Of a stretch of 64,000 bases of DNA, positions 9,889 through 27,788 are shown piece by piece. This stretch comes from Chloroflexi bacterium HGW-Chloroflexi-2. Lineage in GTDB: Bacteria > Chloroflexota > Anaerolineae > Anaerolineales > Anaerolineaceae. Under the pieces are notes generated by a model. That model had not been told where the DNA came from. It saw only the letters and a list, made by a program, of their open reading frames with translations, and searched no databases. Every line of letters starts with the position of its first letter. The first letter of the stretch is position 1. Location: assembly GCA_002840735.1 (NCBI GenBank), contig PHBY01000001.1, positions 186,001 through 250,000 of the forward strand. Reading direction: 5' to 3'. The translations under genes and the position numbers were made by a program.

Positions 9889-10455
9889 TTATTTATCTTC
9901 TTTGATTTTATCCCATTCCAGAAGTATCTTCAAAAAATCGATTTCTAAATTTTTAATATTATCTTCAGGTTGATTATAATCACCGTTTTTTTCAGCTCTT
10001 TCCTTCAGAGATTTCCATAAGATTTCCCGTTCTTCACCCTCAACCACCAGATCACGGACTGAGGATGCATTTTTCATCAGAAATCCTGTTGTGTACAAAA
10101 ACGTGATTCTTCGCCAGCGGTCCGCATGGATAGGATTTTCGAGTGGAATTAAATCTCCAATCTGAATCTTGAAATACTCCTCATTAGCACGTGGATGATC
10201 TTTTTGATCTCGAAATAATTGTGAGCGGGTTGTTAATTCGTGTCCTTTGACCGGGGATATATACTTGATTTGCCAACGATTATTTTCGTCAAATGCAGCT
10301 GTCTGGTAAAAAGCAATATAATCGACTGCAATAACCTTGGGAGCACTTTTGAGTGGAATACGATACCATCCCAATAAACGTGCTAACTCAAGGTCTTTTG
10401 GATTCGGCACGATAGCAACAAGAACAAGATCTGTGTCTGAGGGAAGAGAATTCAT
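9889..10455 (-). CDS. Hypothetical protein (weak resemblance to EVE/PUA-like proteins)
   Basis: Intact 188-aa ORF with coding context; LARLLGWYRIPL...VIAVDYIAFYQ. Confidence 0.55.
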   Translation of the reverse strand: MNSLPSDTDLVLVAIVPNPKDLELARLLGWYRIPLKSAPKVIAVDYIAFYQTAAFDENNRWQIKYISPVKGHELTTRSQLFRDQKDHPRANEEYFKIQIGDLIPLENPIHADRWRRITFLYTTGFLMKNASSVRDLVVEGEEREILWKSLKERAEKNGDYNQPEDNIKNLEIDFLKILLEWDKIKEDK

Positions 10456-10541: not shown

Positions 10542-12020
10542 CTAATTGTATTTTTTCAACAAACCAACACGATCATTGAATTCGGAAATATATTCATCAA
10601 TTTCTTCCAATTGAGATTGGAAGCCAGTCCAATAATCTTTGTCATACCACTGGTCCATAATTTCATTGTATGTCTTACCTTGTTGTTCAACCCAGGTATA
10701 ATATTTGAGATTGTGAACACGTTTCCGATCCTGATACGTTAATTCCACCAAATTATCTGTTGATTCTCCCATTAGTGCAGATGCATATACTTCAGCAGCA
10801 TCATGACTGGTAAATTCGCCAAATTGTTCTCGATACTCGACAATTCTCGAGTCGTATAATTCTACTGAATCTGTTAATACTGCGAGCACAATATCATCCT
10901 CTGTCAGTTCATAATATTTTGCAAATTTGATGGCAGTCAGCATGTTTGCAATTCCAGAATGACCAAAGAGATGCAGGTTCTGGATGATTTGTTCAGGTAC
11001 ACCTTTCTTGGCTAAATATTGCTTTCCTTCAGGCTCATTAAACAATCGTACAATTTTTACAACCGAATTATCATCTATGGCGGTCACCATATCGGTATTC
11101 TTCACATTATGAATCCAGGGAACGTGTTTATCACCAATTCCTTCGATCCGATGTGCGCCAAAACCATTATTCAATAATGTCGGACATTGTAATGCTTCGG
11201 AAGCAACAATTTTCGATGTTGGGAATAATTGCTTCAAGTAATCTCCAACACCAATTGTGCCGGCTGAGCCAGTAGTGGCGCAGAATCCAGCAAAATTACT
11301 GTTAGGTTTCATTTCTGCTTTAAGAATTTCTTCCATGGCATGGCCAGTGATGCTATAATGCCACAAATAGTTGCCGAACTCATCGAATTGGTTGAAAATA
11401 ACCAATGGCTCACCAGATTCCCTCAGTTCCCAGCATTTATCAAAGATTTCTTTTACATTTGATTCACTACCAGGGGTTGCAATCACCTGTGTGGCTACAT
11501 TCTTAAGCCAATCAAATCTTTCCTGGCTCATCTCTTCCGGAAGGATAGCAATCGATTCACAAGCTAACAATTTGGAGTCGTATGCTCCACCACGGCAATA
11601 ATTTCCGGTGGAAGGCCAAACTGCTTTATGGACGGTCGGATCAAATTGACCGGTGACCAATCTGGGAACCAGACAACCATAGGCAGCACCCACCTTATGA
11701 GCACCGGTTGGGAACCATTTTCCAACCAAAACAATAATTCTGGCTTTAACACCGGTGAGAGAAGATGGCAATTCCACATAATTTACACCACCAAATTTCC
11801 CCCCAAAATCTTTCGGTTCATTTTTCCAGGTGATTCGGAAAAGATTTCTGGGATGAATATCCCATAATCCTATATTGGCTAATTCTTCTTTAATCTTCTC
11901 TGGAACTAACGCTGGATTTCTTTGTTGTGCAAGAGTAGGGAGAATGATGTTTCTTTCTCGTGCTCGTTGAACAGAGCGATTTCTTGCTTCTTCGTTTATT
12001 GAAAAATCTATTTTTGCCAT
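10542..12020 (-). CDS. Fold-type II PLP-dependent enzyme (tryptophan synthase beta/cysteine synthase superfamily), function uncertain
   Basis: PTGAHKVGAAYGCLVP (PLP lysine region) and GFCATTGSAGTIGVGDYLKQLFP (phosphate binding). Confidence 0.75.
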   Translation of the reverse strand: MAKIDFSINEEARNRSVQRARERNIILPTLAQQRNPALVPEKIKEELANIGLWDIHPRNLFRITWKNEPKDFGGKFGGVNYVELPSSLTGVKARIIVLVGKWFPTGAHKVGAAYGCLVPRLVTGQFDPTVHKAVWPSTGNYCRGGAYDSKLLACESIAILPEEMSQERFDWLKNVATQVIATPGSESNVKEIFDKCWELRESGEPLVIFNQFDEFGNYLWHYSITGHAMEEILKAEMKPNSNFAGFCATTGSAGTIGVGDYLKQLFPTSKIVASEALQCPTLLNNGFGAHRIEGIGDKHVPWIHNVKNTDMVTAIDDNSVVKIVRLFNEPEGKQYLAKKGVPEQIIQNLHLFGHSGIANMLTAIKFAKYYELTEDDIVLAVLTDSVELYDSRIVEYREQFGEFTSHDAAEVYASALMGESTDNLVELTYQDRKRVHNLKYYTWVEQQGKTYNEIMDQWYDKDYWTGFQSQLEEIDEYISEFNDRVGLLKKYN

Positions 12021-12985: not shown

Positions 12986-14242
12986 TTATTCTCTGTTATT
13001 TTGAAGGTATTTTTTCAAAGATTGCATCGTTGGTTCTATTATGGGCGCTTCCTTGACCGCCATCATTGCAGCTCTTATGTCTTTAAGACCAGATCCTGTA
13101 TTAATTACCAGAACTGGATCTTCTGGTTTGATCATACCTGATTGAATTGCATTTACCAAGCCCGCATATGCTGTTGCTCCAGCGGGTTCTGAAAAAATTC
13201 CAACTTTTCCAAGCTCTGATATTGCCTTTAAAATTTGTTGGTCACTCACGAGTAGATACGAACCTTTGGTTTGTGATGCTGCTCTCACCGCACGGATACC
13301 ATCTCGAGGTAAATCAACAGAAATACTGTCTGCAATCGTATCCGCTTTTACCGGAATAATTTCTTCAGATTTTCTGTGAAATGCATTGGCAATTGCAGCA
13401 GAGCCTTCTGATTGCACGCCAAAGATTCTTGGCATATGATCCAACCAACCTAATGAAATCAAATCCTTAAATCCTTTGTGAATGCCAGAAATAATATTTC
13501 CATCCCCCACACTGACAAAGATTGATAATGGTTGGTTATCCATGGCTTTCTTGACAATAATTTCTTCCCAGATTTCAAATGCAGCAGTCTTTTTCCCCTC
13601 AATAGTGAATGGATTGTATCCTGTATTTCGACAATACCAACCGAATTCATTTGCTGCTTCTACCGATAAATCAAACGCGGAATCATAATTGCCATCTACC
13701 AAAATGACTTCAGCCTGGTAGATGAGTAATTGTGCAATTTTTGCAGGTGGAGCAGTTTTTGGAGCAAAAATAATGGCTCTTTGCTCAACTGCAGCAGCCA
13801 ATCCTGCCAGCGCAGCCCCTGCATTTCCTGTTGAGGCAGTAACAACAACATTAGACCCAATCTCTTTGGCTCTGGCGATCACTACAGCACTGGCTCGATC
13901 CTTGAATGAAGCGGTGGGGTTTTTTCCTTCGTCTTTTATCCATAAATTTTTAAGGTTTAACTCTCTTTTCAACTGATTTGGCGAATAGACAGGGGTTCCA
14001 CCAGTCATCCGAAATGGAGTACCTTCAAACCCAGGATCAGAGACTGGTAATAATGGCAAATATCGCCAGAGATAATTTTCTTCTCTGGAGGTAATGTCAC
14101 TAGCTTCATATTTTCTCTTAATTGAGGAAATGTCCAGGACAATGTCCAGATTACCACCATCTTTTGGACAGGTATAAAGTTCTTGTGTACAGGCATATTC
14201 TGTTCCACAAATGGAACAAGCGTATCCCAGAAATTTATTCAT
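12986..14242 (-). CDS. thrC: Threonine synthase
   Basis: N-term zinc ribbon [58 protein letters not shown]. Confidence 0.85.
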
Positions 14243-14328: not shown

Positions 14329-14343
14329 AATTGTCTGACAATT
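14329..14343. promoter_or_regulatory. Palindromic operator candidate upstream of thrC
   Basis: AATTGTCTGACAATT, perfect palindrome. Confidence 0.55.
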
Positions 14344-14399: not shown

Positions 14400-15398
14400 T
14401 TATTGGCGTTCAAAAGGTGTTCCCAAAGCACCAGGTTGGCGAGATTGCATCGATCGCAGTATTTTTACTGCCCGTAGACGTACTTTGTCAGGCAACGAGG
14501 CTATCAATCTCTCCATCCATTCAGTATTACCCATATTCACGAACAACAAAGCAAGAATCATTAAAGGAAATGGCGCAACCTGAAGCACTTGTGAGGGAAT
14601 TGATGTCATGTACGGTTGTAAAACCAAACCTAACCATTGTAAAAAGGCAAACAAATATGCTCCAAACGCTGCCCTGATCGGATTCCAACCGCCGAAGATT
14701 GTAATTGCTAACACAATCCATCCGATTCCATCCAGTCCGGTGATCGTTCCTTTCCAGCCTGGTTTTACGCTTAATGTATATAGGGGACCGGCTAATCCAA
14801 CGAGTGCTCCACCAACAATTGTATAAAAATATCGCATTTTTTGGACGTTTGCACCTCTAACATAAGCTGCAGCTGGTTTCTCTCCAATTCCTTGCAGCAT
14901 TAATCCAGGGCGTGTCTTAAAAATCCAGAACCAGGCAACGCCAATCATAATAATACTTATATACGTCATCAATGACTGTTGGAATAATAATCTTCCTAAA
15001 ATTGGGATATCTTTTAAAAATGGGATCGAGGTTGATAGCATAATTGGACCCTGGGAACCCATAATGGGGTTACCCAGGAAATATGCTAAATCACGACAGG
15101 TGATTGCAAGAATGAAACCGACAGCTACTTGAGATTGTTTCAGGGTAATGCTGCTGAAAGCAACGATCGTTGCTACCAAAGCACCTACTACCATTCCAGC
15201 CAGGAAACCAAAAAATAAACTATCAGTCTCTACTGCCACCCAAAAACCAATCATTGCGGATAAGAGTATTACACCATTAAGGGATAAATTAATTACACCT
15301 GCTCGCTCAGTGAGGGTCTCTCCAATGACAGCAATTACAATAGGAGCGCCAGAAGCGATTACACCTGCTAATCCGAAAAGAATAATATCGTTTCCCAT
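14400..15398 (-). CDS. BMP-family (nucleoside) ABC transporter permease
   Basis: ERAGVINLSLNGVILLSAMIGFW; Bpd_transp_2-type membrane protein. Confidence 0.88.
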   Translation of the reverse strand: MGNDIILFGLAGVIASGAPIVIAVIGETLTERAGVINLSLNGVILLSAMIGFWVAVETDSLFFGFLAGMVVGALVATIVAFSSITLKQSQVAVGFILAITCRDLAYFLGNPIMGSQGPIMLSTSIPFLKDIPILGRLLFQQSLMTYISIIMIGVAWFWIFKTRPGLMLQGIGEKPAAAYVRGANVQKMRYFYTIVGGALVGLAGPLYTLSVKPGWKGTITGLDGIGWIVLAITIFGGWNPIRAAFGAYLFAFLQWLGLVLQPYMTSIPSQVLQVAPFPLMILALLFVNMGNTEWMERLIASLPDKVRLRAVKILRSMQSRQPGALGTPFERQ

Positions 15399-15406
15399 AG
15401 CTACTT

Positions 15407-16450
15407 CTATTTCCTTCCTAAGAATTTTTGTTTTACGCCTTGAGAAATCATCACAAACAGAACTAAGCTTCCTTGCAAAACTCCGGTCAATGACGAATCC
15501 AGCTTGAGAACAATTGGTAATTGAATACCACCTATATTAAGAGCTGCAAAGAAAAGCGCGATGGGAGCTAACCAAATTGCTTGATAATTTATTAACATGG
15601 CGATCATTAAGCCCATAAACCCATAACCACTTGAAATTGATGGAATCAATCGGTGATAAACGGCTGTAACTTGGATTGCCCCAGCCAATCCAGCAAATAA
15701 TCCACAAATGATGAAAGATAACATCATGTGTTGCCAGGTTGGGATACCCATCCGAAATGCGGATTTCATCCCCTTTCCAACAGCTTTTAACCGTAAACCG
15801 AAATGTGTACCCTGAAGCATAAAGTAAATAATGACCAATCCTATGATTGCAAAAGCGATTGACCAGATACTTACACGAAAATTTTGGAAAGTTGGCAACC
15901 AGAATTGTTCAGGGAATGGCTCAGTTCCACTCATCGATGCTACCCCGGGACGACTCCAGGCACCAAAAATAAGTCCAATGTTTAAGGCTGTAGCAATAAA
16001 ATTTAACCCCAAACCACCAAATATTTCATTGACCCCGCCAAATGTCTTCAAGACACCAGCCAAACCTGCCCAAATAGCTCCACCGATCATCCCAGCCAGG
16101 ATTGAAATCGTGATGACCAATACCGGGGATAAGGAGGTTTCCAAAAATAATCTCATAACGCCGGTTGTAAAAATCGCACCTACTGTTATTTGTCCCTCAA
16201 TACCGATATTCCACATACCCGTAGTAAATGTAGACAACAACCCACATGTTACTAATAGTAAAGGGACCCAAACTACAAGAACACTGGAAATGCGAGTGGC
16301 ATTTCCTGTCGCACCTTCCCAAATTAGTCGAAATGCTTCCAGAGGTTGTGATTTTACCAATATCAAAATAATGGATACAAACAACAATGAAAATACCAGA
16401 CCACCCAATTGAAATAATAATGAAATGCTACGGGTTCGTGATTTATTCAT
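15407..16450 (-). CDS. BMP-family ABC transporter permease
   Basis: TGMWNIGIEGQITVGAIFTTG; multi-TM. Confidence 0.88.
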   Translation of the reverse strand: MNKSRTRSISLLFQLGGLVFSLLFVSIILILVKSQPLEAFRLIWEGATGNATRISSVLVVWVPLLLVTCGLLSTFTTGMWNIGIEGQITVGAIFTTGVMRLFLETSLSPVLVITISILAGMIGGAIWAGLAGVLKTFGGVNEIFGGLGLNFIATALNIGLIFGAWSRPGVASMSGTEPFPEQFWLPTFQNFRVSIWSIAFAIIGLVIIYFMLQGTHFGLRLKAVGKGMKSAFRMGIPTWQHMMLSFIICGLFAGLAGAIQVTAVYHRLIPSISSGYGFMGLMIAMLINYQAIWLAPIALFFAALNIGGIQLPIVLKLDSSLTGVLQGSLVLFVMISQGVKQKFLGRK

Positions 16451-17943
16451 AATTTTTCCTTTGTGTCAAATACCTGTTTCCAACCTTTTCCACCAATTAA
16501 TTGACCCAACTGGTCAAGTGTGGTTGTGGAAGCATCCATAGGTGGTGAAACATGACCACTGAAGAACACTAGAATACGATCGCTATATTGCAAAATCTCC
16601 TCTAAATCGCCTGAAATGAAGAAGATTGATGTCCCTTGCTGACATCTTTCTTTTAATTTTCCCCACATATAGATGGCTGATTCTATATCCAAACCACGCG
16701 TAGGATGTTCTAATAAAATGATGGATAACGAATTCTTAAGTAAGGATAGAGCAGCCCTTTGTTGATTCCCACCGGATAATGATTCAACATTTAAATCCGG
16801 GCGTCCAATAATGTGATACTCATCAATCATTTTTTCAGCTTTTTCTTTGAAGTAATCTTTGTCGATAAATAATCCCTTTTTTTCATCCCCAGCGATTGTG
16901 AAATGCTCCGCCAGGGTTAAACCAGGAACGAGGCCTTCTTCCAATCTGGAAGCTGGTAAAAAAGATACTCCATTTTCCATATATTCGAGGTAATTCTTAT
17001 GGGAAAGATCTTTCTCTTTGACAATTACCTTTCCTGAAATCGGCCTTATTAAACCTACACATGCCCTTAGCAGGATATCCTGACCGCTTCCTTCCATACC
17101 TGCAAGACCGATCACTTCACCGGCACGTAATTGGAAATTTACATTTTCAATTCTTAATGGGTATTGTTCTACATATAAATCTTTTAATTCTAGAACGACT
17201 TTCTCTTGTGATAAATTATTCCGTTCTCCCAATGTTATGACTTTTCCAAACATCATCTCAACTAATTCATCCGAATCAAATGGTGCTGGAACCTCACCAA
17301 CCAAAATACCTTTTCTTAATATTGCTACCCTTGAACAGAGCGCTTCGACATCTTCCAACTTGTGAGAGACAAAAATGATCGTTTTTCCTTGTTCAGCTAG
17401 AATTTTAAGAGCAGCAAATAACTTTTCTTTTTGAAGTGAGCTGATACCAGTAGTTGGCTCATCCAATATTAAAGCATTAGCTCCCATCCATAATAATCTG
17501 AGGATTTCTAATTGTTGCCTTTCACCAACAGTCAAAGTATCAACATAAGCTTCCGGATCCAACGAAAAACCAAATTTTTTCTGTAATTCTTCAAAATCCT
17601 TCATCGTGGATTTATAAGATGGAACAAGACCACCTTTTTGACCAACTATAAAATTTTCAATCAATCGCATTGGAGGGAAATCCAAAGGATCTTGATGCAA
17701 CATGCCTATCCCATAATTAATCGCATCTGCTGGAGAATCAATTGTAACCACTTTATCATCCAATAAAATTTCTCCAGAATCTGGTTGAATAAATCCAGAT
17801 AATACTTTCATCAATGTGCTTTTTCCTGCACCATTTTCACCTAATATTCCGAAAATTGATCCACTTTTTATTGAAAGGTTAATATCAACATTGGCATGAA
17901 CTGGCCCAAAATGCTTATTAATATTTTTAAATTCTACGTTCAT
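16447..17943 (-). CDS. BMP-family ABC transporter ATPase (two nucleotide-binding domains)
   Basis: GENGAGKSTLMKVLSG; LTVGERQQLEILRLLW; SLSGGNQQRAALSLL; start assigned to MNVEFKNINKHFG. Confidence 0.93.
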   Translation of the reverse strand: MNVEFKNINKHFGPVHANVDINLSIKSGSIFGILGENGAGKSTLMKVLSGFIQPDSGEILLDDKVVTIDSPADAINYGIGMLHQDPLDFPPMRLIENFIVGQKGGLVPSYKSTMKDFEELQKKFGFSLDPEAYVDTLTVGERQQLEILRLLWMGANALILDEPTTGISSLQKEKLFAALKILAEQGKTIIFVSHKLEDVEALCSRVAILRKGILVGEVPAPFDSDELVEMMFGKVITLGERNNLSQEKVVLELKDLYVEQYPLRIENVNFQLRAGEVIGLAGMEGSGQDILLRACVGLIRPISGKVIVKEKDLSHKNYLEYMENGVSFLPASRLEEGLVPGLTLAEHFTIAGDEKKGLFIDKDYFKEKAEKMIDEYHIIGRPDLNVESLSGGNQQRAALSLLKNSLSIILLEHPTRGLDIESAIYMWGKLKERCQQGTSIFFISGDLEEILQYSDRILVFFSGHVSPPMDASTTTLDQLGQLIGGKGWKQVFDTKEKL

Positions 17944-17964
17944 TTTTTCCCTTTTAATTTTTAA

Positions 17965-17995
17965 AAAAGGGGAAGACATTACGTCTTCCCCTTTT
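17965..17995 (-). terminator. Intra-operonic terminator/attenuator between binding protein and ATPase genes
   Basis: aaaaggggaagac-attac-gtcttcccctttt perfect stem, T-run on minus strand. Confidence 0.8.
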
Positions 17996-18009
17996 CTTCT
18001 TCAGGTAAT

Positions 18010-19296
18010 TTATTCTGAACGGCCTTCCATACCTTCCAATAATTGAGGAAGATACCAAATTTCTACATCAGCTGCTGCTTGTCCTTCAGCCAGGAATTCG
18101 GTTCCATCCTGATAATTCAATGGCCCAGACCAAAGGTTCAATCCACCTGCTAATTCAGCGATGAATTGATCAAGTAAAGGTTTTGCATCTGCTGACATTG
18201 CTGGTCCACTTAAATAACCAACTGCAGACTTGTCATGATCATTGATGTCTTCCCAACTGGGAGGCATCCACTCAAATGCTGATTTCCATGTTCCTTCCAT
18301 CGCGCTGATTACATAGCGAGCATAAGAAGGTCCCCAATTAAAGTAAGGTACACCCAGACAAACATCTGGAGCTTCATCACAAGCACCGACAAAATCATAC
18401 GGGATTGCAAAAACTTGCTTACCTTCACTGGTGGCTTTTCTGGCTTCTACGAGACCTTCGGTTGTATCAATACCAGAAATGATGACATCAGCCCCAGAAT
18501 TGATGAATTCATTGGCAACCTGAGTTGGATCTTCGGTAAATCCGGGGATATTGAACCAGAATCCAATCCAGGTAACACGGAAGCTAAGGTCAGCCGGATC
18601 TTTTTCCAGGTAGTTTTCCCAACAATAGCGAGCACCCAGGTAGGCGGATGAAGCCAAACGGCGTGTTTCTTCATTAATCAATGGCCCAAGATAACCAATG
18701 GATCCAGTTTGAGTATGTAAAGCAGCATCACATCCAGCAATCATTTTCCCGTATTCCATACCACCCATCAGATTAGCCATATTCGCCAAAGCTTGATAAT
18801 TTTCGCCTTCAGTCCATACAGTATCGCCTGAGGCATGGATAACGAAAATATCAGGATGGTTTTTCGTAAATTCAACTGCATCATCTTTCATATCATCCGA
18901 GTTGAAAACAACCAGTTTGGCTCCTTGTTGAATCAATTCTTCGCCTAATTGAGCTGCGGTTGTTCCGGGACGATCGGCAGTATTAACCTTATCCAGATAA
19001 ATCATTTTGGTGCCAGGAACATTAGCGACTACATACTCGCCAGCTTCATAATGCGCCTGACTATAACCTTTGTCGTTGTACGGTCCGACCAATAATAAGC
19101 CAAAAATGAACTCTTCTGCAGGTGCAGCGGGTTCTTCTGCAGGTGCAGCGGGTTCTTCTACAGGAGCAACTGGTTCTTCTACTGGTGCAGCGGGCTCTTG
19201 AGGAGCAACGGGTTCAGCAGCTGGTTGACAGGCTGATAAAACCAGCGCCATCACCATTAATAAAGCAATTACGGTCCAAGCAAACTTCTTTTTCAT
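18010..19296 (-). CDS. BMP-family substrate-binding lipoprotein
   Basis: MKKKFAWTVIALLMVMALVLSACQ lipobox; Ala/Pro/Glu linker then BMP-type domain. Confidence 0.9.
   Translation of the reverse strand: MKKKFAWTVIALLMVMALVLSACQPAAEPVAPQEPAAPVEEPVAPVEEPAAPAEEPAAPAEEFIFGLLLVGPYNDKGYSQAHYEAGEYVVANVPGTKMIYLDKVNTADRPGTTAAQLGEELIQQGAKLVVFNSDDMKDDAVEFTKNHPDIFVIHASGDTVWTEGENYQALANMANLMGGMEYGKMIAGCDAALHTQTGSIGYLGPLINEETRRLASSAYLGARYCWENYLEKDPADLSFRVTWIGFWFNIPGFTEDPTQVANEFINSGADVIISGIDTTEGLVEARKATSEGKQVFAIPYDFVGACDEAPDVCLGVPYFNWGPSYARYVISAMEGTWKSAFEWMPPSWEDINDHDKSAVGYLSGPAMSADAKPLLDQFIAELAGGLNLWSGPLNYQDGTEFLAEGQAAADVEIWYLPQLLEGMEGRSE
19111..19215 (-). repeat. 21-bp tandem repeats encoding Glu/Pro/Ala linker
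   Basis: ttcttctgcaggtgcagcggg repeated with drift; protein PAAPAEEPAAPAEE. Confidence 0.8.
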
Positions 19297-19536
19297 TTTT
19301 TTCTCCTTCAAATCACAAATTTTTCATTTGGTTTACGACATAGATAAAAAAATTGAATATGCTGAAATTAACCACCTCCTCTCGATAAAAAACAATTAAA
19401 AGTTGATATTACAAGTAGAAAATTTAATGTTCTGGAAAGTTAAGATGAAATTTTTAATACCATTAATAATGGTGATTGAATTATTTTACATGATTCTAAA
19501 AGGAATGAAATATTTATTAATCAAAAAAATGTTTAT

Positions 19537-19573: not shown

Positions 19574-20521
19574 TTATTCTCTGGTAATCCAGGTACCAGT
19601 TAAACCTTGCAATGCTCTACCAATATTCTCAGGATTGGTGATTAAAGCCTTCTTCCCACCATTTTCAAGGAATTTGATAATTGCTTCAATTTTTGGTAAC
19701 ATACTACCTTTGGCAAAATGGCCATCTGCAGCATATTGTTTTGCTTCTTCCAGGGTTAATTTTTCCAGCCACTTTTGATCTGGCTTGTTGAAATTGATGG
19801 CTACTTTCTCAACCGCGGTACTGATGACAAACAAATCAGCGCCAATCATTGTTGCCAATAACGATGAGCCAAAGTCCTTGTCAATCACTGCTTCCACACC
19901 TTCAATATCTCCATTCGGTTCACGCACAACCGGGATTCCACCACCACCCACGCCGACAACGATGATGCCAGCGTCAATTAATGCTTTGATGGCATCTTTT
20001 TCGAGAATATCAATGGGTTTGGGTGATGCAACGACTCGTCGCCAACCGCGACCAGCATCTTCAACCACTACCCAACCATCTTCGGAAGCACGTCGTTTGG
20101 CTTCTTCTTCACCCATGAATGAGCCAATAGGTTTGGTCGGATGTTGGAAAGCATCATCATTTCTATCAACAACTGTTTGAGTCACGACCGCAGCTACTTG
20201 TTTATCCATTTTGCGGTTTTTGAATTCATTGGTTAATGCTCTGGCGAACATATAACCAATCGCACCCTGAGAATCAGCACCACAATAATCCAATGGTACT
20301 TCATGTAACTCATGTGCTGAAAGTTCTGATCTTCTGAGAATGAAACCAACCTGTGGTCCATTACCGTGTGTGACAACAACGTTCCAACCCTGTGCGATCA
20401 TTTCAGCAATATGGTGCATCGATTCTGCCCCAGCTTCATATTGATCCGGAACTGTTTTGTGGTTATTGTCTTTAATTAACGAATTTCCACCAACTGCTAC
20501 TACTGCTACGCCTTTACTCAT
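19574..20521 (-). CDS. arcC: Carbamate kinase
   Basis: VAVGGNSLI...VVTHGNGPQVGFILRRSEL...GVGGGGIPVV. Confidence 0.95.
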   Translation of the reverse strand: MSKGVAVVAVGGNSLIKDNNHKTVPDQYEAGAESMHHIAEMIAQGWNVVVTHGNGPQVGFILRRSELSAHELHEVPLDYCGADSQGAIGYMFARALTNEFKNRKMDKQVAAVVTQTVVDRNDDAFQHPTKPIGSFMGEEEAKRRASEDGWVVVEDAGRGWRRVVASPKPIDILEKDAIKALIDAGIIVVGVGGGGIPVVREPNGDIEGVEAVIDKDFGSSLLATMIGADLFVISTAVEKVAINFNKPDQKWLEKLTLEEAKQYAADGHFAKGSMLPKIEAIIKFLENGGKKALITNPENIGRALQGLTGTWITRE

Positions 20522-20545: not shown

Positions 20546-21529
20546 TTATTGACCCATGGTTAAAGCATAGACAGCACTACATATATGCATTTTATTTTCC
20601 GCTTCATCAAAAATAACGGATTGTGGACCATCCATCACACCATCTGTTACTTCAACACCACGGTCTGCCGGTAAAGGATGCATAAAGATCGCGTCTTCTT
20701 TGGCCAGAGCCATTTTTCTCTCATCAGTTATCCAATGTTTGTATTTGTTAATTATAACACCAGCTTCGGTCGCATCCGTTGTGACCATCCAGGGACCCCA
20801 TGATTTTGGATAAATCACATCAGCGTCCTTGAATGCAGCTTCCATATCATCCACAACTTCAAAACCTGCCCCGGCTTTTCTAGCTTCTTCTTTAGCACGT
20901 TCAACTGTTTCATCAGAAAGTTTGAATTCAGGTGGATGAGCGAGAACTAAATCGACACCGAAGCGTGGGAATTGTAATGCCATTGAATTGGGTATGGACA
21001 ATGGTTTCTGATATGACTCAGCATAGGCCCAGGACATAACAACTTTCTTGCGCTTCAAATTCCTGCCTTTTTTCTCCATGATCGTCATTAAATCTGCCAG
21101 AATTTGGAAAGGATGATAATACTCGCATTGCATATTGAACACCGGTGCCGGAGATGCTTCTGCAACCAAATTCATATATCGATTTCCAATGCCCCAATCC
21201 ACATGCCGGATTGCAATACCATCATAAATACGACCCATAATCTGCCCTATTTCTCTTTCGGTATCGCCATGAGATATCTGTGTGGTACGACTTTCAATGA
21301 ATGCGGGATGACCACCCAAATGAGCAAATGCTGATTCGAACGCCGAGCGTGTGCGTGTACTGCTATAGAAGAATAGCAATGCCAATGATTTATCGCGTAA
21401 ATACGGGGTTGGTTGACGCATGGCACGTTTCATTTTTAAATCCCACGCCACATCTAAAATTGTATCAATCTCTTCTTTTGAAAAATCTAGATCGGTAATG
21501 AAGTCACGTCCTTGTAAACTTGTTTGCAT
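20546..21529 (-). CDS. Ornithine carbamoyltransferase-family protein, YgeW-like
   Basis: FFYSSTRTRSAFESAFAHLGG; MSWAYAESYQKPLSIPNS; FKDADVIYPKSWGPW; HPLPADRGVEV. Confidence 0.85.
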   Translation of the reverse strand: MQTSLQGRDFITDLDFSKEEIDTILDVAWDLKMKRAMRQPTPYLRDKSLALLFFYSSTRTRSAFESAFAHLGGHPAFIESRTTQISHGDTEREIGQIMGRIYDGIAIRHVDWGIGNRYMNLVAEASPAPVFNMQCEYYHPFQILADLMTIMEKKGRNLKRKKVVMSWAYAESYQKPLSIPNSMALQFPRFGVDLVLAHPPEFKLSDETVERAKEEARKAGAGFEVVDDMEAAFKDADVIYPKSWGPWMVTTDATEAGVIINKYKHWITDERKMALAKEDAIFMHPLPADRGVEVTDGVMDGPQSVIFDEAENKMHICSAVYALTMGQ

Positions 21530-21581: not shown

Positions 21582-22802
21582 TTATTTATTTAATTGTAAA
21601 GTTACCAAGGATGGTATCAAAGCATAAAATACTGTTGACCGCACCATATCATCCAATGAAACAGAATCGTTGATCGTATGAGCTGTCTCCTCATCACCTG
21701 GGCCAAATCCAATACTGGGAATGCCTGCTTTTCCTGCCCAATAGATGCCATTCGTACTGAAATTCCATTTTCCAGCTGGCGCCTCATCCAGACCCATCAA
21801 ATTGCGAACTTCGAGACCTGCCTGTACCAATGGATGATCTTCATCAATTGCCCAGGCTGGGAAATACTTGTCTACCGGGAAAACGAATCCAGTGTAAGAA
21901 GGTTCGTCATAAAATAATTCTTCAACTGTGATTCTGTCTTTGAAATCTTCAGGGATCAAAGCTTCCACTTGAGCAATTGCCTGTTCCTTTGTTTCTCCAA
22001 ATGTCATTCGTCGGTCAATGTAGATAATCGCTTCGTTAGGAACTGCATTAATGCTGGGTGTTTGAACTACCATGTCACTGACTGTAATTTTTCCATGACC
22101 CAGGAATTCATGATCACCTAACTCTGGTTCCAGGTCGCGGATACCGGCGATGACAGGAATTAAAGCATAAATGGCATTGTCTCCCAGATGATTACTGGCT
22201 GCGTGGGCACTTCTGCCTTTCGCAGTCACCTTCATTTCTATGCGTCCTTTATGACCTCGGTAAACATTCATTTTTGTTGGTTCGCCAATGACTACAAAAT
22301 CCGGGCGAATTTTTGGATCAACCTCAACGAAGGAATTAGGGGCAATTCCATCGCACCATTCTTCCATGTTTCCAAAATAATAAGCAGTCCAGCCATCTAA
22401 AAGTCCGAGCTTGTTGGCGATCGATAAACCATAGACCATTCCAGGTGTACTGTTCTTCTCATCGCAGGCACCACGACCGTAAAAAATCCCATTTTCAATT
22501 TTTCCAATAAAAGGATCATGTGTCCATTCTTCCGGATCACCAATACCTACTGTATCGATGTGTGAGTCAAACACCATGACTTTACTTCCAGAACCAATTT
22601 TCCCCATGATATTACCCATCACATCAAATCTTACTTCATCAAAGCCTAATTTTTTCATTTCTTCAGCAATTCTTTCGCCAACAGGACCGATTTTGGAATC
22701 CATACTGGGAATAGCGACAATTTCGCGAAAGAAATTAATAATATCAGGGCGTGATGCTTCAACGTTTTCGATAACTTCTTTTACTTTATCTCTACTGACC
22801 AT
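21582..22802 (-). CDS. ygeY: M20-family hydrolase, YgeY-like (selenium metabolism hydrolase family)
   Basis: VMVFDSHIDTVGIGDPEEWTHDPF; GRGACDEKNSTPGMVYGL; start assigned to MVSRDKVKE. Confidence 0.8.
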   Translation of the reverse strand: MVSRDKVKEVIENVEASRPDIINFFREIVAIPSMDSKIGPVGERIAEEMKKLGFDEVRFDVMGNIMGKIGSGSKVMVFDSHIDTVGIGDPEEWTHDPFIGKIENGIFYGRGACDEKNSTPGMVYGLSIANKLGLLDGWTAYYFGNMEEWCDGIAPNSFVEVDPKIRPDFVVIGEPTKMNVYRGHKGRIEMKVTAKGRSAHAASNHLGDNAIYALIPVIAGIRDLEPELGDHEFLGHGKITVSDMVVQTPSINAVPNEAIIYIDRRMTFGETKEQAIAQVEALIPEDFKDRITVEELFYDEPSYTGFVFPVDKYFPAWAIDEDHPLVQAGLEVRNLMGLDEAPAGKWNFSTNGIYWAGKAGIPSIGFGPGDEETAHTINDSVSLDDMVRSTVFYALIPSLVTLQLNK

Positions 22803-22835
22803 CGTAGATCTCTCCATTCTAATTTTTTTTATCAA

Positions 22836-23588
22836 TTATTTTAATTCACCTACACGCCTCACAACCTGGAAGCGAAAATAACCTGGCAAAAAGTAACTGT
22901 AAGAATAATCTATAATTTTTCCTTCTGTTGAATATAAATAAGCTGTAAATAGCAATAAAACATCACCTCTTTGAATTTGTAAAGCCCGTGCAATATTTGA
23001 AGATGCCGCCTCAGCTTGAATGATTGTTTTTGAAACGGATAAATCTATTTTTTCACTTTCTATTAATCGATCAAGGACTGATCCGGTAAATCCAGCTGAA
23101 AGATCGGCATTCGTGAAAATTGATTCTGGTAGTACATCCACTAAATATGCCACTGGACGATTTTCGGCATTAATGACGCGTGAAATTTTGATTAATGGTG
23201 TATTTTCCTCAACATTAAGATTTTTTGCGTAATAATCATTCGCATTAATCTGGGTAATAACCAAATCCCCCATTTTTACATCCAGACCAATTTTTTCAGC
23301 CAGGGTTTCAATACTTTCCAAAACTTCGAGACCCGTTTCAATAACCTGAATGGGACCAACCACAAAGGTACCTACTCCCTGACGCCTGCGAATGATTCCC
23401 TGACCTTCGAATGTTCGCATTGCTTCTCTTAATGTAGCTCTTGAAACACCTAACATTTTTGCTAACAAGGGTTCAGATGGTAATTTTTCACCGTGGGGTA
23501 TGGTAGAAATTACATTTGCGAGTTCATTTTGTAAACGCTGAAATGATGTTAGTGAATTTTTTTCGTGCGTTTCCTGTATATGTGCCAT
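22836..23588 (-). CDS. GntR-family transcriptional regulator with UTRA-like ligand domain
   Basis: KLPSEPLLAKMLGVSRATLREAMRTFEGQGIIRRRQGVGTFV. Confidence 0.9.
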   Translation of the reverse strand: MAHIQETHEKNSLTSFQRLQNELANVISTIPHGEKLPSEPLLAKMLGVSRATLREAMRTFEGQGIIRRRQGVGTFVVGPIQVIETGLEVLESIETLAEKIGLDVKMGDLVITQINANDYYAKNLNVEENTPLIKISRVINAENRPVAYLVDVLPESIFTNADLSAGFTGSVLDRLIESEKIDLSVSKTIIQAEAASSNIARALQIQRGDVLLLFTAYLYSTEGKIIDYSYSYFLPGYFRFQVVRRVGELK

Positions 23589-23601: not shown

Positions 23602-25392
23602 TTAATCTTCAATAATTACTGGTATGAATTGGAATTTGTTTACATCTACCAGACCTTTATCTGATAATCTCACTTCAGGAATTACAACCAGACCTAATAA
23701 GCTTAATTGCATATTTGGATTATTTAACACACAACCACATGCCTCGAAACCTCTTAAAACCGAAGATGCTTGATTAGAGACAATTTTGGCGTTTTGATTG
23801 GACATTAAACCCGCAATGGGTAAAGAAACTTCACCAATTATTTCACCATCTTTGAATACAACCTGTCCTCCACCAATTTCAGCTAACCGATTGACTGCCA
23901 AAGCCATTTGTTCTTCATCAGTTCCAGTAACAATTAATTGGTGCGAATCATGTGCTACGGTTGTTGCAATCGCGCATTTCCCCTTGAACCCAAAACCAGA
24001 AACAAATCCATTGGAAACCGAACCTGATCTGGTGTGACGCTCGACAACTGCTATTTTTGCGACATCCTGATTCGGATCAAGCGTAATCAGTTCATCCTTT
24101 ATGGGTAGTAACATTTTTAAATGTTTTGTCGGTGCCTGGTTTTCAATCACACCGATTACATTGACATGAGTAGAACCCTTTTTATTTGTTTTAATTTGGA
24201 ATACTTCAGGAGAAATTGGTGTCTCAATATTAACAGATTGTATTGCCCAATCTGGATATTCAATTTCAGGGAATTCGATCATATTTTCACCATTTTTGGC
24301 AACAATCATGCCTTTTGCTAAAACCAGTTCTGGGTGAAAATCATTAAGGTCAGGGACAAGGAGAATGTCAGCATATCTTCCAGGAGCAATTTGACCAATT
24401 TCTGTTTCCAGACCAAAATAAGTTGCCGTGTTGATGGTTGCCATCTGGATTGCCAGCATTGGATCAACACCCTGTTCGATTGTGTGTCGTAATACCCGAT
24501 CCATATGTCCATCTTCAACCAGAGTAGCTGAGTGAGAATCATCCGTGCATAAAATGAAGTTTCGAGGATCCAGACCGTGTTTAGTAATGGCTTTTACCTG
24601 TTCTTCGACATCATGCCAGGCTGAACCATAACGCATCATCACTTTCATGCCCTGTCTTGCTCTGGTGATCGCATCAACCGTTCGGGTGCCTTCATGGTCA
24701 TCCTGCGCACCTCCAGCAACATATCCGGAAAAAGGTAACCCCAAATCCGGAGAGGCATAATGACCGCCGATTACTTTGTCTGCTAATCTGGTTATTTCCA
24801 TCTCTGCATGTAATTTTTCATCATTATTACTCACACCCGGAAAATTCATCATCTCGCCCAACCCAATAATTCCATCCCAATTCATCGCTTCAGCAACATC
24901 ATCAGGAGAAATGGAGGCGCCCGGGGTCTCAAACCCTGGTGCGGATGGAACGCATGAAGGGACCTGTACAAATACGTGGTTGGGCTGCATCAATGCTTCA
25001 TCCACCATCAACCGAACACCTTTGAGTCCAAAGACGTTTGCAATTTCATGAGGATCTACCATCATAGTGGTGGTGCCTTTGGGAAGAACAGCACGCACAA
25101 ATTCTGTTACAGTTAACATCCCCGATTCTACATGCATATGCCCATCGATTAATCCAGGGACAATGAATTTCGATTCTGCATCAATAACTTTTGTAATGTC
25201 TCCAATACAATGGTCTGCACTCTCCCCCACATAAGCTATTCGCTGACCAGAGATAGCAACATCAATGTTGTTAATAATTTCCCCGGTTTGAACACATACC
25301 CACCTCCCATTTTTAATCACGAGTGAAGCAGGTTGTCTTCCCATTGCAACATCAACAAGTTTCTTGCTATCCTTTTGCTTGAATGGATCCAT
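23602..25392 (-). CDS. ade: Adenine deaminase
   Basis: FIVPGLIDGHMHVESGMLTVTEFVRAVLPKGTTTMMVDPHEIANVFG. Confidence 0.93.
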   Translation of the reverse strand: MDPFKQKDSKKLVDVAMGRQPASLVIKNGRWVCVQTGEIINNIDVAISGQRIAYVGESADHCIGDITKVIDAESKFIVPGLIDGHMHVESGMLTVTEFVRAVLPKGTTTMMVDPHEIANVFGLKGVRLMVDEALMQPNHVFVQVPSCVPSAPGFETPGASISPDDVAEAMNWDGIIGLGEMMNFPGVSNNDEKLHAEMEITRLADKVIGGHYASPDLGLPFSGYVAGGAQDDHEGTRTVDAITRARQGMKVMMRYGSAWHDVEEQVKAITKHGLDPRNFILCTDDSHSATLVEDGHMDRVLRHTIEQGVDPMLAIQMATINTATYFGLETEIGQIAPGRYADILLVPDLNDFHPELVLAKGMIVAKNGENMIEFPEIEYPDWAIQSVNIETPISPEVFQIKTNKKGSTHVNVIGVIENQAPTKHLKMLLPIKDELITLDPNQDVAKIAVVERHTRSGSVSNGFVSGFGFKGKCAIATTVAHDSHQLIVTGTDEEQMALAVNRLAEIGGGQVVFKDGEIIGEVSLPIAGLMSNQNAKIVSNQASSVLRGFEACGCVLNNPNMQLSLLGLVVIPEVRLSDKGLVDVNKFQFIPVIIED

Positions 25393-25411: not shown

Positions 25412-26803
25412 TTACACAGATAATAATCTGGATGCGGCTTTGTTATGAGCAGAAATCAAGTTTGGTAAATCAATATTTACTAATTGTTGATCTTTCACTA
25501 CAATTTTTCCATGAACAACATTAAGATCAACATTTCCGGGTTGGCAGAACACGATTGCCGCGATCGGATCATGTAAAGCACCGGCATATTCCAGGCGGTT
25601 CAGATTAATCGCAACGAAATCTGCACAATTACCCACCTCAAGTGTGCCAATATCCTTGCGACCCAGGACGGCTGCTCCACCTTTTGTCGCTAATTCTAAA
25701 GACTGACGAGCTGTGAACAACTTTTCAGCCCCATCACTGGACAGTGAAGCACCCATCAATCCTGCTCGTAATCTGGCTAATAACATTGTCTGGCGAGCTT
25801 CAGCCAACAAATGAGAACCGTCATTACTTGCTGAACCATCAACGCCCAGCCCAACTTTTACACCAGCCATCAAATAATCCAGGATCGGAGCCGCTCCAGA
25901 TCCAAGTCGCATATTAGAGCTGGGACAATGTGCAACCCCACAACCTTCGTGGGCATACACCTGGATTTCTTCCTGATTGATATGAACTGAATGGGCAAAC
26001 CAGACATCATTTCCAACCCAATTCAGTGATTGCATATATCCCAAAGGTCTGTAACCAAATTTCTCGAGACAGAAGACTTCTTCATCCTGGGTTTCTGCTA
26101 GGTGTGTGTGCAATTGCACACCATATTCTCTGGCTAATTTTGCAGATTGGATCATCAACTCGCCTGTTACACTAAAAGGTGAGCAGGGAGCTAACACGAT
26201 TTGAACCATTGATCCTGGTTTGGAATCATGATATCTCTGAATAAGTCTTTGAGAATCTTTTAAAATAAATTCTTCAGTATCCACAACAGTATCCGGAGGC
26301 AAACCACCTTTACTCTCACCCAAACTCATAGAACCACGTGATGCGTGCAGCCGTAATCCTACTTCGGATGCAGCATCGATTTCATCATCGAGTTTTGATC
26401 CGTTTGGAAAAAGATATAAATGATCTGATGCGGTAGTACAGCCTGAGAGTGCTAATTCGGATAGAGCGATCTGCGTGGAAATACGAATGTCATCAGGGGT
26501 CATTTTGGCCCAGATTGGATAGAGTGTCTTTAACCAATTAAATAAATTCACATCCTGAGCTGCAGGTACAGCTCTTGTCAGTGTTTGATAAAAATGATGG
26601 TGCGTGTTGATCAAACCTGGTAGAACGATATGTCCGGTCAAATCCAACACTTCATCTGCAGTTTCTGGTAAATCTTCCGTAGAACCAATCTGCTCGATGA
26701 ATCCATTGCGAGCAAAAAGGCCACCATCACGAATCTCGCGGCGGTGGCCATCCATAGTCACAAGCAAAGTTGCATTCTTTATTAAGATGGTTTCATTTTT
26801 CAT
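25412..26803 (-). CDS. Amidohydrolase, 8-oxoguanine deaminase/SsnA-like
   Basis: LPGLINTHHHFYQTLTRA; HTHLAETQDEE; GLGVDGSASND; start assigned to MKNETILIKNATLL. Confidence 0.8.
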   Translation of the reverse strand: MKNETILIKNATLLVTMDGHRREIRDGGLFARNGFIEQIGSTEDLPETADEVLDLTGHIVLPGLINTHHHFYQTLTRAVPAAQDVNLFNWLKTLYPIWAKMTPDDIRISTQIALSELALSGCTTASDHLYLFPNGSKLDDEIDAASEVGLRLHASRGSMSLGESKGGLPPDTVVDTEEFILKDSQRLIQRYHDSKPGSMVQIVLAPCSPFSVTGELMIQSAKLAREYGVQLHTHLAETQDEEVFCLEKFGYRPLGYMQSLNWVGNDVWFAHSVHINQEEIQVYAHEGCGVAHCPSSNMRLGSGAAPILDYLMAGVKVGLGVDGSASNDGSHLLAEARQTMLLARLRAGLMGASLSSDGAEKLFTARQSLELATKGGAAVLGRKDIGTLEVGNCADFVAINLNRLEYAGALHDPIAAIVFCQPGNVDLNVVHGKIVVKDQQLVNIDLPNLISAHNKAASRLLSV

Positions 26804-26829
26804 TTTCTGAATTCTTTTTTCTCTTGTAT

Positions 26830-26840
26830 TTGTTAGACAA
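26830..26840. promoter_or_regulatory. Operator candidate (downstream copy)
   Basis: TTGTTAGACAA, one mismatch from TTGTCnGACAA. Confidence 0.5.
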
Positions 26841-26856
26841 CTACACAACCATCCAG

Positions 26857-26885
26857 AGTTTAGCAAGAATTCAAATAAAAGTCAA
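26857..26885 (-). promoter_or_regulatory. Promoter of deaminase operon
   Basis: Minus strand TTGACT-N17-TAAACT. Confidence 0.6.
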
Positions 26886-26896
26886 TTGTCAGACAA
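26886..26896. promoter_or_regulatory. Operator candidate abutting -35
   Basis: TTGTCAGACAA perfect palindrome. Confidence 0.6.
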
Positions 26897-26906
26897 CATC
26901 AATTTT

Positions 26907-27788
26907 TTATTTTAAATCAGCAATTTCGGCAGCCCTTAATGTATTTTTCATCAGCATGGCAATTGTCATTGGTCCAACACCACCGGGTACTGGGGTAATC
27001 ACACCAGCGACCTCTGAAACTTCATCATAAGCTACATCACCGACCAATTTATAACCTCGTTTTGCAGTCGGATCATCAACTCGATTCACACCAACATCAA
27101 TGACAACTGCGCCTGGTTTTACCCAATCTTTCTTTACCATTTCAGCTCGTCCGACTGCGGCTACCAAAATATCAGCCTGACGGACAACACTCGGTAAATC
27201 TTTGGTTCTTGAGTGGCAAATCGTTACTGTTGCATTTGCTCTTACCAATAACAAAGCCACTGGCATACCAACAATGTTGGACCGTCCAAGAACGACTGCA
27301 TTTTGACCTTCAATCTTTGCAACAACTTGTTCAATCAGATACATTGTTCCGGCTGGAGTACAAGGGATGAAAAGCGGATCACGACCTTTCTGAGCTAATC
27401 TGCCAATATTTAATGGATGAAAACCATCCACATCTTTCTCAATACTGATCATATTCAGTACACGTTCTTCATCCAAACCGGAAGGCAACGGTAGTTGAAC
27501 GAGAATACCATGAACAGTTGGATCATCATTCAATTGCTTTACCAGGTCTTCAACTTCCTGTTGTGTAGCATCCGCTGGTAAAACATGACCAAATGAATTA
27601 ATTCCAGCTTCCTGACAGGCTTTGTGTTTTGATCGCACGTATACCTGTGAAGCAGGATTTTCTCCAACTAAAACAGTTGCCAATCCAGGTACCATTTTTC
27701 CATCAGCAACCCGTTTCTCAACTTGTTCTTTTACTTCCAATCTTACATTTTCCGCGATTGTTTTTCCATCCAATATAGTTGCAGTCAT
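26907..27788 (-). CDS. folD: Methylenetetrahydrofolate dehydrogenase/cyclohydrolase
   Basis: MTATILDGKTIAENVRLEV; VDGFHPLNIGRL; TPGG motif as TPVPGGVGPMT. Confidence 0.95.
   Translation of the reverse strand: MTATILDGKTIAENVRLEVKEQVEKRVADGKMVPGLATVLVGENPASQVYVRSKHKACQEAGINSFGHVLPADATQQEVEDLVKQLNDDPTVHGILVQLPLPSGLDEERVLNMISIEKDVDGFHPLNIGRLAQKGRDPLFIPCTPAGTMYLIEQVVAKIEGQNAVVLGRSNIVGMPVALLLVRANATVTICHSRTKDLPSVVRQADILVAAVGRAEMVKKDWVKPGAVVIDVGVNRVDDPTAKRGYKLVGDVAYDEVSEVAGVITPVPGGVGPMTIAMLMKNTLRAAEIADLK

Follow-up and report, generated by a model that had tools for sequence, protein, structure and literature searches.

What binds the palindromes that flank the predicted promoter of an operon for purine breakdown, and is it the GntR-family protein encoded in that operon? 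Regulation of urate-metabolism genes in gut bacteria has been called poorly understood (PMC12507026). We examined this locus of an Anaerolineae bacterium in a window (the whole stretch of DNA that was analysed) of 64,000 nt, and in related genomes.

Palindromes at the promoter of the deaminase operon

We found that the arrangement proposed in the first-pass annotation, a pair of palindromes around a TTGACT-N17-TAAACT promoter, is correct to the base on the minus strand. Read on that strand, the order is TTGTCTGACAA, TTGACT, 17 nt, TAAACT, 16 nt and TTGTCTAACAA:

26886-26896, minus strand: predicted operator 1, TTGTCTGACAA, a perfect palindrome around a central base; the conserved copy, touching the -35 box
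26880-26885, minus strand: -35 box TTGACT; TTGAC is kept in orthologues
26857-26862, minus strand: -10 box TAAACT with extended TG; kept in orthologues
26830-26840, minus strand: predicted operator 2, TTGTCTAACAA, which departs from a perfect palindrome at one base and lies just downstream of the predicted start site; not always present in relatives

The perfect palindrome (26896-26886) adjoins TTGACT (26885-26880) as claimed, and the one-mismatch copy past the start is present at 26840-26830. From centre to centre (26891 and 26835) the distance is 56 bp, which was the same on recheck. We preferred ATG at 26803 as the deaminase start over the TTG at 26866 of the ORF list. Because the start codon is likely this ATG (26803-26801) and the folD stop is at 26907, both palindromes would lie between folD and the deaminase gene. 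The promoter is near consensus, with an extended -10, and the centre of operator 1 is at approximately -41 relative to the predicted transcription start.

The genes downstream, together with those of a second purine operon, are as follows:

25412-26803, minus strand: 8-oxoguanine deaminase-type gene, first gene of the operon (NF006055, 668.9 bits, cut-off 532)
23602-25392, minus strand: adenine deaminase (TIGR01178, above cut-off)
22836-23588, minus strand: GntR-family regulator with a UTRA domain, third gene of the operon; the proposed operator binder
21582-22835, minus strand: YgeY-type hydrolase (TIGR03526, above cut-off)
20546-21529, minus strand: ornithine/aspartate-type carbamoyltransferase
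19574-20521, minus strand: carbamate kinase (from sequence and context)
14400-19311, minus strand: purine/nucleoside-type ABC transporter, comprising a BMP lipoprotein, an ATPase and two permeases (from sequence and context)
14331-14341, minus strand: third perfect site, TTGTCAGACAA, touching a -35-like TTTACA, upstream of the second purine operon
12986-14242, minus strand: threonine-synthase-like PLP enzyme, first gene of the second operon
10542-12020, minus strand: CysK-like PLP enzyme, 492 aa
8437-9858, minus strand: D-hydantoinase/dihydropyrimidinase-type enzyme (TIGR02033, above cut-off)

The ABC transporter genes (14400-19311) probably belong to the same transcription unit as the deaminase operon, or to a following one. 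In the second operon, the 492-aa CysK-like enzyme may stand in for diaminopropionate ammonia-lyase. A 188-aa protein without a family match is encoded at 9889-10455, beside this enzyme and the hydantoinase. The perfect copy at 14331-14341 was absent from the first-pass annotation; four relatives have the site at the equivalent position upstream of the orthologous gene.

Conservation of the palindrome in relatives

We found that the palindrome is strongly conserved upstream of the deaminase gene. Phylogenetic footprinting of this region had been named beforehand as a test that could refute the proposal. TTGTCWGACAA was present in all 31 deaminase upstream regions (24 exact, 7 with one mismatch), whereas only 3 of 620 shuffled upstream regions reached one mismatch or fewer. 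In most of these regions the site runs straight into TTGAC, with a TAMACT-like -10 downstream. Cultured relatives with the site include Longilinea arvoryzae, Bellilinea caldifistulae and Levilinea saccharolytica.

The fused operator and promoter were also scanned for in one genome per species (84,980 species). The scan gave 110 stretches with 111 matches, 97 of them directly upstream of this deaminase; the pattern was derived from relatives, whose recovery is therefore expected, and the informative part is that the matches point to one group and one gene. Most of the remaining matches were at a contig edge, or upstream of adenine deaminase or gntR. By their titles, the 110 stretches are from Chloroflexota, mostly Anaerolineae, bar one record named UBP9. 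The palindrome recurs in roughly a hundred related species, ahead of this gene and of further purine genes.

The motif follows the co-encoded gntR

Relatives of the GntR protein were present in 45 of 61 genomes. The density of exact sites was 1.11 per Mb where a close orthologue was encoded and 0.38 per Mb where none was (Mann-Whitney p = 4e-5; the control was not significant, and since the genomes are related, p is a rough guide). In genomes lacking such an orthologue, 13 deaminase genes had no site nearby. One of these 13 genes is in a genome that encodes a divergent GntR relative (42% identity, altered recognition helix), and that genome has no exact site at all. Two further deaminase genes from genomes of this kind, lacking a close orthologue, do carry the site. 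In both of these cases the contig ends, either within gntR (65.6% identity over the HTH) or ahead of it.

The operator is thus conserved upstream of the operon that holds gntR, and in several relatives a site is directly upstream of gntR itself or of a gntR-led operon. These positions support the earlier suggestion of autoregulation. In one genus, the wing Gln of GntR is replaced by Pro and the operator, just past the -10, reads TTGTATGACAA (L069, L072); this paired change is a single event and is suggestive only.

Based on conservation and on the way the motif follows gntR across genomes, we suggest, as had been proposed, that the co-encoded GntR/UTRA regulator very probably binds at TTGTCWGACAA. 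The conserved operator system is real, and the sequence comparisons indicate that this protein is very probably its purine-catabolism regulator. We consider it probable that the motif is the operator through which the GntR/UTRA protein acts as a local Anaerolineae purine-catabolism regulator of several operons. Some findings stand against this: some sites in relatives occur before genes with no obvious part in purine catabolism, or inside genes, and UTRA proteins mostly read GT-N4-AC.

Repression or activation

We infer GntR binding, repression and a ligand, as follows. A GntR dimer on operator 1 would sit against the -35 box; roughly half of the promoters would have another dimer just past the -10. 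The likeliest reading is that these dimers would block RNA polymerase, and that a purine or downstream metabolite would bind the UTRA domain and release GntR. GntR would also regulate itself, its gene being third in the operon. Its further targets would be the second purine operon, a purine/nucleoside-type ABC transporter, a locus with AllH and cyclase genes, and an operon of cofC and an F420 reductase (see below).

GntR is likely a repressor, a role favoured by the near-consensus promoter and by the sites past the -10. We put it no more firmly because the conserved site is at approximately -41, and class II activators also bind near -41. GntR might therefore activate, or both activate and repress, from this site. 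Operator 1 abuts the -35 box in nearly all relatives, and there are promoters with the upstream copy alone within -60 to +80 (48/111) or with another copy upstream, which speaks for activation. However, a near-consensus promoter with an extended -10 should need no activator. In addition, a site past the -10 is placed to block, whether it is the second site of a promoter or, as at the cofC promoter and in some relatives, the only one. We regard activation as unlikely, and a blocking repressor as the better account.

The GntR protein and the spacing of its proposed operator

The spacing of the operator raises the question of whether a different protein binds it. Operators of UTRA (HutC) proteins are mostly GT-N4-AC, and those of the FadR type are GT-N3-AC (PMC4494728). 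The first-pass annotation had matched the palindrome to a GT-N3-AC core of GntR operators. The spacing is as described; however, it is that of the FadR subfamily, whereas this GntR carries UTRA, the HutC domain. GT-N4-AC did not occur within 26285-26994; this spacing is usual for the HutC subfamily and, since published exceptions exist, is not strictly defining.

The protein has an N-terminal GntR winged HTH (PF00392, 53.1 bits, cut-off 27), which places it in the GntR superfamily, and a C-terminal UTRA domain (PF07702, 80.7 bits, cut-off 23.8), as in the HutC subfamily. UTRA was the sole C-terminal domain matched, and the FCD/FadR C-terminal domain of the FadR subfamily was not found. The full-length sequence and modelled fold are HutC-type (structure model pLDDT 77; fold matches to YvoA and DasR), and members of this subfamily (YvoA/NagR, DasR, PhnF, HutC) are the closest full-length solved relatives by both measures. 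The protein differs from them in the spacing of its predicted operator (3 nt, where 4 is usual) and in its HTH, which is closer to PdhR. With the FadR subfamily (PdhR, LldR, FadR) it shares the GT-N3-AC operator and the best HTH match (PdhR, 1e-10), but not the effector domain.

The HTH is highly conserved. In GntR proteins, an Arg at position 28 of the HTH goes with a preference for G at position 6 of the site (PMC4494728). Here position 28 is Pro and site position 6 is T (alignment to FadR by eye), in agreement with that rule. YvoA reads RVR where this GntR family reads RVI, with an invariant Ile139. Judging from these residues, the ligand may be something other than a sugar phosphate.

We considered whether the motif is instead bound by another regulator, for instance a GntR of the FadR subfamily whose gene is elsewhere, with the co-encoded GntR being in the operon by coincidence. 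The 3-nt spacing, being FadR-type (PMC4494728), would fit such a protein. But the motif goes with this gntR from genome to genome, the HTH of the co-encoded protein is itself most like PdhR, and one genus shows a paired change of its wing residue and the operator. Moreover, this genome has nine more GntR genes, none of them on a contig that bears any of the other sites, so that a different GntR has no linked candidate gene here. We therefore find a separate binder quite improbable and retain the co-encoded GntR as the predicted one.

The second site and looping

The first-pass annotation had suggested that two operators might loop the DNA. GntR proteins are dimeric, and two dimers on two sites that flank the promoter 56 bp apart could form a repression loop around it. 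We found that the second site is optional: it was absent within -60 to +80 in 48 of 111 promoters. Where a second copy is downstream, it begins 4-16 bp past the -10 (once 28), with centre spacings of 44-45 bp (27 cases), 48, 50-56 and, once, 68 bp. Upstream second copies are 14-29 bp ahead of the first site (once 55). An apparent clustering of spacings by helical phase vanished once distinct spacings were counted, and a DNA loop of about five turns is stiff. The suggestion of looping thus did not hold up. A fixed loop is very unlikely, and an optional second site at variable spacing fits separate blocking sites better.

Motif counts in this genome alone are near control and uninformative: there were 8 matches with up to one mismatch in the 64,000-nt window (3.35 expected), and the whole genome holds 4 exact copies of TTGTCWGACAA, compared to 3 for the reversed control. 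These counts are all that would favour chance matches, a reading that position and conservation over many species exclude almost completely.

Other sites and the proposed regulon

We found further sites elsewhere in this genome. At C5:4630-4683 (L086), three palindromes within 54 bp are upstream of a permease-permease-BMP-ATPase operon, the second BMP-type ABC transporter operon of this genome. At C26:71105 (L087:8065-11239), a site lies between the genes for AllH (oxamate carbamoyltransferase subunit) and a cyclase-family protein, a pair that flanks a site in congeners as well. At C11:260707-260717 (L358:3182-3192), a one-mismatch site is 4 bp past a TATAAT and precedes cofC, which is followed by a gene for a luciferase-family, putative F420-dependent reductase. 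In congeners, too, cofC with an F420-type reductase carries the operator.

In relatives, genes behind sites include those for BMP proteins, DHOD/Fer4 proteins, diaminopropionate ammonia-lyase, a second adenine deaminase, a xanthine-dehydrogenase-type subunit, formate-THF ligase, glutamate dehydrogenase, CofC and PurL. This coherent set of purine genes supports the purine role originally proposed, and a local, autoregulated purine-catabolism regulon is the best reading of the sequence data. Some sites in relatives, upstream of H+-pyrophosphatase, TerC and PurL, are not obviously purine-catabolic. In the loci examined, 25 of 122 exact sites fall inside ORFs (crude ORF caller), so some exact sites are probably chance.

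The genes resemble published reductive urate-degradation clusters (PMC12507026) in having a YgeY-type hydrolase, a carbamoyltransferase, carbamate kinase and hydantoinase. They differ in the deaminase, which here is 8-oxoguanine deaminase-type and scores well below the SsnA cut-off. The same paper noted a putative F420-dependent reductase in Chloroflexota, and a text search of it found no GntR or repressor named (PMC12507026). An operator upstream of cofC and a luciferase-family reductase fits the proposal of an F420-dependent reductase made there. Our literature search, in a collection with few subscription journals, found no described Anaerolineae purine regulator or UTRA purine regulator. 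We see roughly an even chance that UTRA GntRs reading GT-N3-AC form an undescribed orthologous group that acts throughout Anaerolineae as the main regulator when purines and urate are broken down anaerobically, with F420-dependent reduction and its cofactor gene cofC among the processes controlled.

For a large environmental group whose members are mostly uncultured, the results provide a concrete candidate operator, and a candidate regulator, of anaerobic purine catabolism. Searches with the operator can lead to further genes of the pathway; the operator already marks cofC and the luciferase-family reductase genes, which are of the kind suspected of yanthine reduction. It is also a natural case in which to ask what links the spacing of GntR operators to the types of HTH and effector domain. 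In congeners, exact sites upstream of PurL and H+-pyrophosphatase (L150, L168, L152, L177) reflect either a wider regulon or chance.
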